The notes below the pieces were generated by a model. The model saw only the letters and a program-made list of their open reading frames with translations, did no database searches and was not told the DNA's origin. From assembly GCF_947498175.1 (NCBI RefSeq), contig NZ_CANMJB010000003.1:372001-436000 (forward strand): a stretch of DNA of 64,000 bases, written 5' to 3'. Within the stretch, counting starts at the first letter, position 1. Each line of letters begins with the position of its first letter. Positions 10,864 to 15,275 of this stretch are shown here, piece after piece. The DNA is from an uncultured Algimonas sp. (GTDB lineage Bacteria > Pseudomonadota > Alphaproteobacteria > Caulobacterales > Maricaulaceae). The position numbers and the translations under genes were made by a program.

Positions 10864-11922
10864 CTATTTCTTCAGACCATGTTTGCGCAGCAAGCCCCGC
10901 AGCTGATGATAGCTCAGGCCTAGCCGCTCCGCCGCCTTGCCCTGATGATCGTTCGTCGCGCGTAGCGCTTCGTCGATCAGGCCGCGTTCGAAGGCGCGCA
11001 CGCGGCCGGGAAAATCGGTCGGGGCGTCGCCGGGTTCCGTGTCTTCATCCTTGCCAGCTTGCAAGTGCGGGGCGGCTTGCACGCGTGGCATGGCTTTTTG
11101 GTGCGGGGTCTCCGGCCCAGGCCCTCCGACTATGCGGTGCGGACTGTCGAACGGGTCGAGGTCGAGATCCGCGATGGGCTCGCCCAAGGCCTCGTCCGCC
11201 AGGAAAGCCCGGACCGTGCTGCGCTCGATCAGGCCCTTGAGCTCGCGCACATTGCCGGGAAAGGGATGATTGCGCAGCCGTTCGTGGGCTTCGGCCGTCA
11301 GGCCTGGGAAAGCGTCCGCGCCGAGCTGGCTGACCACCACCCGTCCGAAATGCTCGATCAGGGCGGGCAGGTCGTCGGGGCGGGCGCGCAAGGGCGGCAG
11401 GGTGATGACGTGGAAAGCGATCCGGTCGAGCAGGTCGGCGCGGAAATCGCCGCGCCTGGCCGCGCCGGGCAGGTCGGCGTCGGTCGCGGCCACGACCCGC
11501 ACGTCCACCTCTTCCGCGTAGAGCTCGCCCGTCGCCTGGACCCGGCCGTGCTCGATCGTCTGCATCAGCTTTTCCTGGAGGTGGACCGGCATGTGCTCGA
11601 TCCCGTCCAGGAAGAGCGTTCCGCCATCGGCTTCGAAGAACCGGCCGTTCGTGTCCGCGCGTCCATCCATGAAGGTCTGGCCGAACAGTTCGCGGTCCAG
11701 CGCGTCGTCATCGAAGGCGGCGCAGTTCACCCGCACGAAGATCTTCTCCCAGCGCGGCGACAGGAAGTGAACGCGCGACGCGATCAGCTCCTTGCCGGTG
11801 CCGCGCTCGCCGACGATCAGCGCGGGCCGGTCGGTCGAGGCATAGTCGGAGACGCGGTCCATCAGCGCCATGAAGGAGGGACTCGATCCGATCGGTTGAG
11901 AACGCATGGGCATGTTGGCCAA
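10864..11922 (-). CDS. pspF: PspF-like AAA+ bacterial enhancer-binding protein with degenerate GAFTGA
   Basis: 352 aa with a sigma54-activator-type AAA+ domain and a Fis-type helix-turn-helix (KAAERLGLSYHQLRGLLRKHGL) but no receiver domain, as in PspF. It is divergent from pspA-B-C. Walker A is GERGTGKE. The loop normally reading GAFTGA is LFGQTFMDGRAD, and the Walker B stretch is GGTLFLDGIEH, so Gly replaces the Glu that follows Asp. Homologues lacking GAFTGA generally cannot open sigma54 promoters. It may therefore work with sigma70 or as a DNA-binding switch (inference). The start is TTG 11922, or ATG 11913 or 11907; none has a clear ribosome binding site. Confidence 0.85.
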   Translation of the reverse strand: MANMPMRSQPIGSSPSFMALMDRVSDYASTDRPALIVGERGTGKELIASRVHFLSPRWEKIFVRVNCAAFDDDALDRELFGQTFMDGRADTNGRFFEADGGTLFLDGIEHMPVHLQEKLMQTIEHGRVQATGELYAEEVDVRVVAATDADLPGAARRGDFRADLLDRIAFHVITLPPLRARPDDLPALIEHFGRVVVSQLGADAFPGLTAEAHERLRNHPFPGNVRELKGLIERSTVRAFLADEALGEPIADLDLDPFDSPHRIVGGPGPETPHQKAMPRVQAAPHLQAGKDEDTEPGDAPTDFPGRVRAFERGLIDEALRATNDHQGKAAERLGLSYHQLRGLLRKHGLKK

Positions 11923-11930
11923 ATAGGCCA
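11916..11930. promoter_or_regulatory. Palindrome TGGCC-N5-GGCCA over pspF start
   Basis: A perfect 5-bp inverted repeat overlaps the pspF translation start region. It could be an autoregulatory site or a 5' transcript hairpin. No binding evidence. Confidence 0.3.
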
Positions 11931-11979
11931 GACTTGATGACTAATCCAGCCAAACCATGTGGAAAATAGACCAATCCAT

Positions 11980-12015
11980 TTACCGTTTGTCGGTAAGAAA
12001 GATAGAAAACACAAT
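11980..12015 (+). promoter_or_regulatory. Candidate sigma70 promoter and operator of the psp operon
   Basis: TTGTCG (11987-11992), a 17-nt spacer and CACAAT (12010-12015) make a moderate sigma70-type promoter pointing towards pspA. The -35 lies within the inverted repeat TTACCG-N5-CGGTAA (11980-11996), which could be the PspF site. I scanned 11923-12151 for TGGCAC-N5-TTGC and found nothing convincing. Confidence 0.35.
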
Positions 12016-12151
12016 TTTTTCAAAGATTTAGTTTTTCGTGACAAAAGGCGCCGGACTCATCATCTTCAAATCATCGAAACGGACCGGAAGCGTCCGACCC
12101 ACCAGAGCCCGCCTCGCCGGGACGAATAGAGAGAGACGAAAGGAGACGATG

Positions 12152-12331
12152 ATGACCTACCGCACCATCGACAATGATCTGAACGCCATCACCGGACACG
12201 CAGCGCCGTCGCGCTCCGTTCGCCGGGCCCGCCGCCGCCGCGGCTACGCCGCGATGAGCGTGCGCACCACCGGCAGCTACGGCTATATGCCGATGCACGG
12301 CTCCGTGGACACCTACGAGGAAATTCTCTGA
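12152..12331 (+). CDS. Small basic ORF (59 aa), first gene of the psp operon
   Basis: The start is ATG 12152 with AGGAG 6 nt upstream; the adjacent ATG 12149 is too close to that site. The protein has a basic middle (RSVRRARRRRGYAAM) and ends near SYGYMPMHGSVDTYEEIL. No TM segment or known domain is recognised. Its stop overlaps the ATG of the next ORF (TGATG), and both precede pspA in the same direction, so it is likely co-expressed in the envelope-stress response. Confidence 0.55.
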   Translation: MTYRTIDNDLNAITGHAAPSRSVRRARRRRGYAAMSVRTTGSYGYMPMHGSVDTYEEIL

Positions 12332-12465
12332 TGGATCCGCGCTACACAGGACCGGACGGCTGGCGCGTCAAAGGCGCTCGCTTCGTCCAATACATCACCA
12401 CCCGCGACAAGGAATGTTGGGGCTTCTTCGCCGCAGGTTTCCTGATCGCCGCGATCCTGGCGTAA
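12331..12465 (+). CDS. 44-aa single-TM protein between the small ORF and pspA
   Basis: This gene is too short for the ORF track. ATG 12331 overlaps the preceding stop (TGATG), and it ends in TAA at 12463-12465. The translation begins MDPRYTGPDGWRV and ends in a hydrophobic segment WGFFAAGFLIAAILA, so it is probably inserted in the inner membrane by its C terminus. It lies 43 bp before pspA. By position it could be a small envelope-stress protein like the short membrane members of other psp operons, but no homology is claimed. Confidence 0.5.
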   Translation: MDPRYTGPDGWRVKGARFVQYITTRDKECWGFFAAGFLIAAILA

Positions 12466-12508: not shown

Positions 12509-13216
12509 ATGGGTATTTTTTCCCGCATGGGCGACATCATCAATTCCAACCTCAACGCCATGATCGAGGCGGCCGAAGATCCTGAAAAGATCGCCCGCCT
12601 GATCATCCAGGAGATGGAAGACACGCTGGTCGAGGTCCGCACCGACGCCGCCCGTCACATTGCCGAGCGCAAGGAGCTGACGCGCCGCGAGGACGATTAT
12701 CGCAAGCGCGCCGACGACTGGGCGAACAAGGCCGAACTGGCCATCACCAAGGACCGGGAAGACCTGGCCCGCGGAGCGCTGCAGGCCAAGCGCCAGGCCG
12801 AGGACATGGCCGACGTGGTCGGCAAGGAGATCGAGGTGCTGGACGAAGCCATCGCGAAAGCGGACGGCGACCTGTCCAAGTTGCAGACCAAGCTCGACGA
12901 GGCCAAGGCCAAGCACAAGGCGCTGACCATGCGCAGCACGGTCGCCCGCAGCCAGGTCAAGATGCGGTCCAAGATCGTGGACACCCGCGTCGACGACGCC
13001 CTGTCCCGTTACGAGCGGATGGAGCGCAAGGTCGACGAGCTGGAAGCCCATGTCGAGGCGTTCGATCTCGGCGAAGGCGAAAGCCTGGAGAGCCAGTTCG
13101 CCGCCCTGGAAACCGACGACGAGCTGGAAGACGAGCTGGCCGCGCTGAAGGCCCGGATGAGCAAGCCGAAAAAGGCCGCCAACAAGTCCGAAAAGCCGTC
13201 CAAGAAAGCGAGCTGA
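12509..13216 (+). CDS. pspA: Phage shock protein A (PspA/IM30 family)
   Basis: 235 aa and almost wholly helical coiled coil, starting with the amphipathic membrane-binding helix MGIFSRMGDIINSNLNAMIE, followed by DPEKIARLIIQEME. PspA coats and repairs damaged inner membrane and, in Gammaproteobacteria, restrains PspF. The C terminus has an extra Lys-rich tail (KKAANKSEKPSKKAS). AAGGAG lies 10 nt upstream of the ATG. It precedes pspB and pspC in one operon, divergent from pspF. Confidence 0.97.
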   Translation: MGIFSRMGDIINSNLNAMIEAAEDPEKIARLIIQEMEDTLVEVRTDAARHIAERKELTRREDDYRKRADDWANKAELAITKDREDLARGALQAKRQAEDMADVVGKEIEVLDEAIAKADGDLSKLQTKLDEAKAKHKALTMRSTVARSQVKMRSKIVDTRVDDALSRYERMERKVDELEAHVEAFDLGEGESLESQFAALETDDELEDELAALKARMSKPKKAANKSEKPSKKAS

Positions 13217-13355: not shown

Positions 13356-13604
13356 ATGTTGAGACCCGAAGTCCTGGTCTTCATGATCCCCATCGTCGCC
13401 ATCGTCATGGGAATCGCATCCTCGATGCTGAAGACCCACTACGAGCATAAAGAGCGCATGGGCGGAGGCGGCACGCCGGAAAACGGCGCCCACCGCGCCG
13501 AACTCGAACAGATGTCGCGCATCGCCGACATCCTCGACCAGCGCGTCAAGGTGCTGGAGAACATTCTGGACGACGAGATACCGAACTGGAGGGAGAAATC
13601 ATGA
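13356..13604 (+). CDS. pspB: Phage shock protein B-like membrane protein
   Basis: 82 aa with an N-terminal TM helix (VLVFMIPIVAIVMGIASSML), then a hydrophilic helix with a leucine-zipper-like end (ELEQMSRIADILDQRVKVLENIL). PspB and PspC together sense membrane stress and recruit PspA in known systems. It overlaps pspC by ATGA. The 139-bp gap to pspA holds no clear gene. Confidence 0.85.
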   Translation: MLRPEVLVFMIPIVAIVMGIASSMLKTHYEHKERMGGGGTPENGAHRAELEQMSRIADILDQRVKVLENILDDEIPNWREKS

Positions 13605-14083
13605 AAAAGCGCCGCTACGAATATGAAGAACGCTGGGAAGACGATCACGGTACGTGGGAATCGCGCGAAAGCGGCGACTACGGTCAACGCCCCAAGCTGC
13701 GCCGCAACAAGATCGACGGCATTCTGGGCGGAGTCTGCTCCGGTCTCGGCGACTGGCTCGGCATCGATCACGGGCCGATGCGGATCTTCTTCGTCCTGGC
13801 CGTGATCTTCCTGGGCTTCCCGGTGCTGATCTACTTCCTGATGTGGATGTTCATCCCGTCGGACAAGCGAGCGCCTTACGTCCGCGAACGCCGCGAACAG
13901 CGGCGCGCCCATCGCAAGGCCCGCCGTCACGGCTTGCCGGACGCCGGACCGGTCGATGCGCCGCGCTATTCGGACGTCCGGTCCAAGTTCCGTTCGCTGG
14001 AAGTCCGGCTGCAGGATCTGGAACGGTCCGTGACCTCGCGCGAATGGCGGTTGCGCCGCGATTTCCGGGACCTGGAAAGCTAG
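13601..14083 (+). CDS. pspC: Phage shock protein C (PspC domain)
   Basis: 160 aa. The PspC domain is evident: RNKIDGILGGVCSGLGDWLGI, followed by a long hydrophobic segment (MRIFFVLAVIFLGFPVLIYFLMWMFIP). A basic region and a C-terminal helical part (KFRSLEVRLQDLERSVTSREWRLRRDF) come after. It starts on the ATGA ending pspB, so the two are translationally coupled. In known systems it is the membrane sensor that relieves PspA inhibition. Confidence 0.93.
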   Translation: MKKRRYEYEERWEDDHGTWESRESGDYGQRPKLRRNKIDGILGGVCSGLGDWLGIDHGPMRIFFVLAVIFLGFPVLIYFLMWMFIPSDKRAPYVRERREQRRAHRKARRHGLPDAGPVDAPRYSDVRSKFRSLEVRLQDLERSVTSREWRLRRDFRDLES

Positions 14084-14154: not shown

Positions 14155-14382
14155 ATGAATATCATAGCCACCACCTTATTGGCGGGAACGATCGCCATCC
14201 TGCCGGCGGGCCTTGTCCCGAAGCCCGATATCGCCAACCCGATCGACGGGGTGAGCGTCTGCGTCGCCGGGATGCAGATTGGCCTCGACGCGGACGGCCT
14301 GGAAACCAAGGCCGCGAACACGACCGACTTTACACTGGAACTGCGCTTGAAGTCCGCCGCCCCGATCCGAGTGCGGCTGTGA
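14155..14382 (+). CDS. Small secreted protein (75 aa), unknown
   Basis: It has a signal-peptide-like N terminus (IATTLLAGTIAILPAGLVPKP) and a short polar rest, with GGGAG about 9 nt upstream of ATG. Its stop overlaps the GTG start of the next gene (GTGA), so the pair is translationally coupled. The family is not recognised. It follows pspC on the same strand after a hairpin. Confidence 0.6.
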   Translation: MNIIATTLLAGTIAILPAGLVPKPDIANPIDGVSVCVAGMQIGLDADGLETKAANTTDFTLELRLKSAAPIRVRL

Positions 14383-15275
14383 GGCGCGCCGCTCTCCTGA
14401 TGGGCGCGGCCGCCGCACTGAGCGCCGCCCCGGCCTTCGCGACGGACGTCACGATTCGCGACTTCGTTGGCACGGTCATGCTGGTCGAAGGTTCGGACGG
14501 GGTCGAACTGATCGAACAGGGCCGCAAGGGCGATGTCGATTTCAGAGACTCCCCGTCGGGGATCGTCGTCGATGGCGGCATGGACAACCGGGCCCGTAAC
14601 GACGCCTGCAAGGGCCGCGGCGTGTCCTTCGACCTGGACTGGAACGGCAGAGACTATGCGGGGGACACCCGGCTGGCCGACTATCCCAAATTGCGGATCG
14701 GCGTCCCGTCCGGGTCCGACCTCACCATCGAAAGCAGCGCCGTGCGGCTTGAAACGGACGTGGCGTTGGACCGCGCGGAACTGGATCTCTCGGGATGTTT
14801 CGACGTTGCCCTCGCCGATACGACAGCGGTGCGCCTGGACAAATCCGGCTCCGGCGACTTCACGGCGGCCAATGTCGGCACGTTTACGGCCGAGAAATCC
14901 GGTTCAGGCGATATCGAGCTGAAACGCGTCGGACGGTTCGACCTCGAACAGTCCGGCTCCGGCGACGTCGAGATCGACTTGATCACGGGTCGCGCCGACA
15001 TCGAGAAATCCGGGTCCGGAAATATCGAGATCGTGGAGGTCGACGGCGATTTCGAGGTCGAGAAGTCCGGCTCCGGCGACGTCGTCATCGACGGCGGGGA
15101 AATCCCCAATCTAGTGGTCCGCAATAGCGGGTCCGGCGATGTGGACATCGCCGCGACCGTCGGCAATGCCTATGTCAGGGCTTCGGGCGCGGGCGACGTG
15201 ACGCTGGGACGCCTGACCGGGTCGATCGATCAAAGAGCGTCGGGATCCGCCGACATCAATTGGGACACAGACTGA
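14379..15275 (+). CDS. DUF2807-like secreted protein with SGSGD repeats
   Basis: 298 aa. A Sec signal peptide (ALLMGAAAALSAAPAFA) is followed by a beta-helix-like region with repeated KSGSGDxxxxxVGxF units spaced about 18-20 residues, six or more copies. This is the pattern of the DUF2807 putative adhesin-head family, which often sits beside PspC or envelope-stress genes. It starts at GTG overlapping the preceding stop. The last 20 bp overlap the convergent mnmC gene. Probably periplasmic or surface-exposed; the role is unknown. Confidence 0.75.
   Translation: MRRAALLMGAAAALSAAPAFATDVTIRDFVGTVMLVEGSDGVELIEQGRKGDVDFRDSPSGIVVDGGMDNRARNDACKGRGVSFDLDWNGRDYAGDTRLADYPKLRIGVPSGSDLTIESSAVRLETDVALDRAELDLSGCFDVALADTTAVRLDKSGSGDFTAANVGTFTAEKSGSGDIELKRVGRFDLEQSGSGDVEIDLITGRADIEKSGSGNIEIVEVDGDFEVEKSGSGDVVIDGGEIPNLVVRNSGSGDVDIAATVGNAYVRASGAGDVTLGRLTGSIDQRASGSADINWDTD

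Follow-up and report, generated by a model that had tools for sequence, protein, structure and literature searches.

Our comparative analyses show that the psp locus of the window (the whole stretch of DNA analysed, 64,000 nucleotides long) encodes a PspF lacking both the GAFTGA motif and the Walker B glutamate, and that among relatives the absence of GAFTGA goes together with the absence of the sigma54-type -24/-12 promoter. In the two-by-two table, which covers the 95 loci where a sequence of PspA is available, 40 have lost the motif and have no -24/-12 site, 55 have kept both, and none is mixed. This co-occurrence gives strong support to the original prediction that psp has here been rewired away from sigma54; to judge from the sequences compared, motif and promoter appear to have been lost together in at least two independent lineages. 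Few AAA+ activators of sigma54 have been studied as thoroughly as PspF, and both GAFTGA and the Walker B glutamate are regarded as essential. In the window's family, a natural PspF without loop or glutamate exists beside sister lineages that have both, and the promoter change is visible base by base. This makes testable how an enhancer-dependent system leaves sigma54 and whether ATP binding alone suffices for activation. We consider it likely that this PspF acts as a PspA-gated, hydrolysis-deficient, ATP-binding activator of a sigma70-type psp promoter.

PspF and the psp locus of the window

The pspF gene (Table 1) most likely starts at the ATG at 11913, or else at 11907, in an open frame that reaches 11922, and is divergent to pspA, pspB and pspC, the gene context expected for PspF. 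The best NCBIfam match of its product is TIGR02974 (E 1e-104, 350 bits, under the curated equivalog cut-off of 443.55), and a profile search recognised PF00158 (sigma54-activator AAA+), AAA_lid_14 and HTH_8. Its AAA+ domain is 46% identical to that of E. coli PspF structures, the best PDB matches all being PspF, and its AlphaFold2 model (pLDDT 86.9) has the PspF AAA domain 2c99 as top PDB match (TM 0.92 over the target).

Table 1. Features of the psp region, in window coordinates; promoter, enhancer and IHF-like elements are predictions
Feature	Position	Strand	Remarks
pspF	10864..11913	-	AAA+ domain and Fis-type HTH; no GAFTGA, no Walker B Glu
Walker B position E108, Gly codon	11602..11604	-	Residue 102 of the 347-aa protein
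Degenerate L1 loop LFGQTFMDGR	11659..11688	-	Residues 74-83 from ATG 11907; E. coli PspF: LFGHEAGAFTGAQ
Three tandem predicted PspF enhancer (UAS) sites	11915..11975		About 11915-11932, 11937-11954 and 11958-11975; 21-22 bp apart
Inverted repeat TTACCG-N5-CGGTAA (TTACCGtttgtCGGTAA)	11980..11996		Not conserved, probably not functional as such
IHF-like site TTTCAAAGATTTA	12018..12030	+	Consensus WATCAANNNNTTR, one mismatch; between enhancer and promoter
Predicted -35 GTGACA	12038..12043	+	Family form [TG][CTA]GAC[AT], in 36/36 lost family loci
Predicted -10 CATCTT	12061..12066	+	Family form CATNTT; 17-bp spacer; predicted start near 12073
Small ORF 1	12152..12331	+	59 aa, Arg-rich, psp leader; one-base overlap with small ORF 2
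Small ORF 2	12331..12465	+	44 aa, ends RFVQYITTRDKECWGFFAAGFLIAAILA; directly 5' of pspA
pspA	12509..13216	+	TIGR02977, 276.1 bits, above cut-off 242.95
pspB	13356..13604	+	PF06667 above cut-off
pspC	13601..14083	+	PF04024 above cut-off

In the alignment with E. coli PspF, whose example chain is an E108Q mutant, the loop reads LFGQ, a three-residue gap and TFMDGRADTNGRF against LFGHEAGAFTGAQKRHPGRF in E. coli; LFGHEAGAFTGAQK of the E. coli structures thus corresponds to LFGQ and TFMDGR on either side of the gap, and LFLDE corresponds to LFLDG. This bears out what had been read from the DNA alone, namely QTFMDG in place of GAFTGA and glycine in place of the Walker B glutamate, with Walker A (Lys42) and the HTH (matched by HTH_8) intact. 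Trp56, Asn64, Asp107, the arginine fingers Arg162 and Arg168, and Arg227 are retained as well. Measured against what characterises bEBPs, the protein lacks the sigma54-contacting GAFTGA, and its set of hydrolysis residues is incomplete, Lys42, Asp107 and both arginine fingers being there and the glutamate being glycine. Absence of GAFTGA with the ATP-binding residues kept is the combination seen in the R. capsulatus NtrC kind of bEBP.

The original prediction had singled out rpoN as the gene to look for. The genome does encode RpoN at full length (509 aa); its gene shares a contig with pspF, at a distance of about 43 kb, and rpoN occurs in 101 of the 108 genomes of the window's family. Sigma54 has not been lost, which rules out rpoN loss as the cause of the rewiring and makes the change local to psp rather than part of a general sigma54 loss. 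There are four bEBP genes in the genome: a sole canonical one (L002, with GSFTGA and DE), NtrX, an NtrC-like regulator and PspF. NtrX and the NtrC-like regulator are also without GAFTGA (L003 1054-2478; L005 892-2214), so that the psp rewiring fits a wider tendency.

Two small ORFs occupy the psp leader. Homologues of the first were found at 23 loci, 20 of them GAFTGA-less and 3 with the motif intact. The second has one hydrophobic segment, is probably membrane-spanning and has homologues at 75 of the 96 psp loci of the order, in both GAFTGA states; it has no match in Pfam or NCBIfam and is possibly an unrecognised Psp component. Downstream of pspC (window 14379-15275) lies a gene for a DUF2807/Toastrack, LiaG-like protein, and Toastrack proteins have been reported within some alphaproteobacterial psp operons. 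Two genomes of the survey carry two pspA copies each (G006, on contigs 3 and 10; G123, on contigs 24 and 93), G123 having two pspF-psp loci; these copies represent duplication or assembly mixture. Two genomes of the window's family (G019 and G135) have PspA without a close PspF and are candidates for natural pspF loss or for assembly gaps.

The GAFTGA loop and the -24/-12 promoter among relatives

The comparison covers 96 PspF loci, drawn from 60 relatives and from genomes of the window's family (108) and of its order (249); they were called lost or intact according to whether PspF is without GAFTGA or has kept it. The 56 intact loci all have the Walker B glutamate, and their loops include one GAFSGA (L099) and a few GSFTGA. 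Of the 40 lost loci, 36 belong to the window's family, where the loop reads QTFMDG or SFLDG or is deleted entirely, and 4 to a different family within the order. The Walker B glutamate is missing in 39 of the 40, and L100 is the only lost locus whose loop is not shortened by at least three residues. A further 40 loci across the class are all canonical and all have a -24/-12, one of them with GAFTNA (L224). Since GAFSGA and GAFTNA both keep a -24/-12, these variants are possible tolerated steps. The alignment across related genera that the original prediction had proposed shows the loop loss to be clade-wide: all 29 loci of the window's own clade are loop-less, which rules out sequence error as its source and, with it, a sequence correction that would restore GAFTGA.

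Sites of 13.7-16.7, on a consensus score with a maximum of 16.7, are present in 56/56 intact loci at a near-fixed distance from the pspF Walker A codon, however long the leader that precedes pspA. In the pspF-pspA gap of the window no -24/-12 was found, the top score being 12.5 of 16.7 (shuffle p 0.21). At the same fixed position, the lost loci of the window's family reach a top score of 10.9, without a -24/-12, and none of the 40 lost loci has a site there. Because this absence is common to 36 loci of the window's family, it is far beyond chance. A displaced -24/-12 elsewhere in the leader is likewise lacking in 38 of the 40; the two exceptions (L042 and L050, scores of 13.7-13.9, shuffle p 0.01 each) occupy unrelated positions, one near the enhancers, and were rejected as chance matches. 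Both the scoring of the gap and the comparison with relatives thus agree with the initial impression that psp has no visible sigma54 promoter. In a Henriciella MAG (L107) the -24/-12 matches that of sister-family loci in every base, which may point to a Hyphomonadaceae-like sister group.

On the PspA tree the loss needs four changes, and on the PspF tree, which was built with the loop and Walker B columns removed, it needs three. An AU test (p 0.446) does not reject one loss event for all lost loci of the window's family, and we therefore claim only two losses firmly. The independent pairs on the PspA tree all agree, two on strongly supported branches and four on the best tree; with only two strongly supported pairs, significance in a formal sign test is out of reach.

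It could be argued that sigma54 is still used, through the unusual loop and a degenerate -24/-12 that the consensus score misses, given that rpoN is intact and that the loci with GAFSGA and GAFTNA tolerate some loop change beside a -24/-12. We regard this as very improbable in view of the extent of the loop shortening and of the missing glutamate at the lost loci, of fixed-position scores that do not exceed 10.9 where every intact locus reaches at least 13.7, and of the other conserved element that fills the place.

Control elements between pspF and pspA

That element, [T/G]NGAC[A/T]-N16-18-CATNTT, is conserved at the place of the old promoter in 36/36 lost loci of the window's family, with a spacer of 17 in 28 of them, 16 in 7 and 18 in 1. 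Measured from the Walker A codon of pspF, the start that it predicts lies at 260-276 bp in the lost loci of this family, compared with 266-270 for the start that the -24/-12 predicts in its intact ones. Of the lost loci, the four that belong to the other family share another conserved sequence, around TANTGAATCC-GTGACGG. The new -10, CATNTT, matches TATAAT poorly, and the psp element as a whole resembles a weak sigma70 promoter, which points to sigma70 as its putative user. In a weak test, the upstream regions of groES in the genus have a CTTGCGA...CATACATG-like sequence and the psp -35 is [TG][CTA]GAC[AT]; a promoter for RpoH, the heat-shock sigma, was set aside since a CTTG-type -35 as at groES is absent from psp. 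In many loci a hairpin begins near the predicted psp start, as in the 5' leader hairpin of L018, L020 and L041 (e.g. GCTGAGGC-AAAC-GTCTCAGC), which is perhaps an mRNA-stabilising or regulatory element.

A sigma70-like -35/-10 had been part of the original prediction and stands, whereas the inverted repeat TTACCG-N5-CGGTAA that it placed on the -35, as a binding site for PspF, exists in the window but lies off the conserved -35. Among 30 loci the repeat has an exact match in L010 only, and the two nearest relatives, L011 and L012, carry it in broken form, which rules it out as the PspF operator. The PspF-like sites that are conserved take the form of three TNGTnAAAnnnACnAA repeats, closer to pspF than the inverted repeat. 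When a 17-bp enhancer matrix (consensus TgGTgAAATtcACcAAA), trained exclusively on loci with GAFTGA, is applied to the lost loci, it also detects three sites there, with their spacing kept at about 23 and 20 bp. Their score is 24.3 bits, compared with -0.2 ± 5.5 for shuffled sequence, and 97% of loci exceed the 95% level. The second site of the window is weak (3.0 bits). The IHF-like site agrees at 8-9 of 9 positions in 31 of the 36 lost family loci, a score of 8 being reached by 12% of shuffles.

Selection on the protein itself has been uneven. Lys42 and Trp56 are kept in 40/40 lost loci, Arg227 in 39/40 and Asn64 in 38/40 (Trp56, the predicted PspA contact, is also present in 56/56 intact loci), while E108 survives in 1/40, R162 in 23/40 and R168 in 29/40. 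At matched PspA divergence, identity of the AAA+ domain is 51% in lost versus 76% in intact loci, and that of the HTH is 66% versus 58% and thus not reduced. This pattern of residue and domain conservation implies that the parts binding DNA, ATP and PspA are constrained and that those serving hydrolysis and touching sigma54 are not. ATP hydrolysis has probably been lost from PspF in the window's lineage and in one or more others. The faster evolution of the AAA+ domain, together with the loss of arginine fingers in some lineages, might suggest that PspF is a decaying relic without function. Such decay seems highly unlikely to us, as the open frame spans the PspF match in the lost loci, with one in-frame stop codon in L100 only, as HTH identity is undiminished and Trp56, Lys42 and the enhancer are conserved, and as pspF is present in 51 of the 53 pspA-bearing genomes of the window's family.

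As the main alternative, PspF might have been reduced to an autorepressor, or to a co-repressor dependent on PspA, with psp being constitutive or under another regulator. In E. coli, PspF uses the same sites to repress its own sigma70 promoter. In the window the predicted enhancers are immediately upstream of the pspF start codon, and conservation of the enhancers alone could be explained by pspF autoregulation, because the pspF promoter must sit at or beside them; the fast AAA+ evolution in lost loci also speaks for this possibility, which we deem unlikely but well worth keeping in mind. Against it, the IHF-like site and the enhancer-promoter spacing on the pspA side have been kept, neither of which is needed for autorepression, and Trp56 and the Walker A lysine persist at every lost locus.

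Proposed mechanism and comparison with known systems

In the activator model that we prefer, PspF would still bind the three enhancer sites beside its own gene, would probably still bind ATP and would be held by PspA through the Trp56 loop. Without GAFTGA it would be unable to engage sigma54, and without the Walker B glutamate it would probably not hydrolyse ATP. The -24/-12 would have been swapped in place for a sigma70-type -35/-10 and the other control elements kept. Membrane stress would free PspF from PspA and, with IHF bending the DNA in between, enhancer-bound PspF would most likely stimulate the housekeeping RNA polymerase at the new promoter, the activation step most likely proceeding via ATP binding and not hydrolysis. 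We infer three elements of this model: the sigma factor used, activation rather than repression by PspF, and gating by PspA. On balance, we favour the view that at least two conversions have turned PspF into a PspA-gated, ATP-binding, hydrolysis-dead driver of a sigma70 promoter, with the enhancer, IHF-like site and start kept and the core promoter swapped. If true, these loci would form a natural series of an enhancer-dependent switch changing its polymerase. For a psp locus with pspF, dependence on sigma54 cannot be assumed.

The full-text literature searched, which leaves most subscription journals outside, contained no GAFTGA-less PspF and no PspF-paired sigma54-independent psp promoter, and we claim novelty provisionally. 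According to one survey, descriptions of the PspF of the Psp response exist for Enterobacteriaceae only (PMC9239133). With ATP or dATP, the E108A, E108D and E108Q variants of E. coli PspF show defects when the promoter DNA is duplex, E108Q at low ATP being an exception (PMC4132715). These defects, together with the NtrC precedents described below, favour a hydrolysis-deficient activator of sigma70 type.

The psp system of the window resembles the PspF/sigma54 system of E. coli in its divergent pspF and pspABC, in an AAA+ and HTH protein with Trp56 and the same fold, in its enhancer sites beside pspF and in an IHF-like site before the promoter. By contrast, it is without GAFTGA, Walker B glutamate and -24/-12, has a sigma70-like element instead, and has two small ORFs in the leader. 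The NtrC of R. capsulatus is likewise a GAFTGA-less enhancer-binding protein, and it is reported to activate sigma70 transcription in a manner that needs ATP binding but not hydrolysis (Bowman and Kranz 1998, as cited in PMC10274813), a requirement that fits the residues kept and lost in PspF. However, NtrC is a phosphorylated response regulator, whereas PspF lacks a receiver domain and its control is expected to come from PspA; in the case of PspF, moreover, the matching promoter change can be traced across relatives. Caulobacter NtrC, from which GAFTGA has been deleted, also works at sigma70 promoters (PMC10274813), but it requires both Walker A and Walker B, suggesting that hydrolysis is retained, unlike the window's PspF with its missing Walker B glutamate. 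VpsR of Vibrio cholerae is a further GAFTGA-less bEBP acting at sigma70 promoters; it differs from PspF in being reportedly ATP-independent (PMC10274813) and in being a biofilm regulator that is not controlled by PspA.
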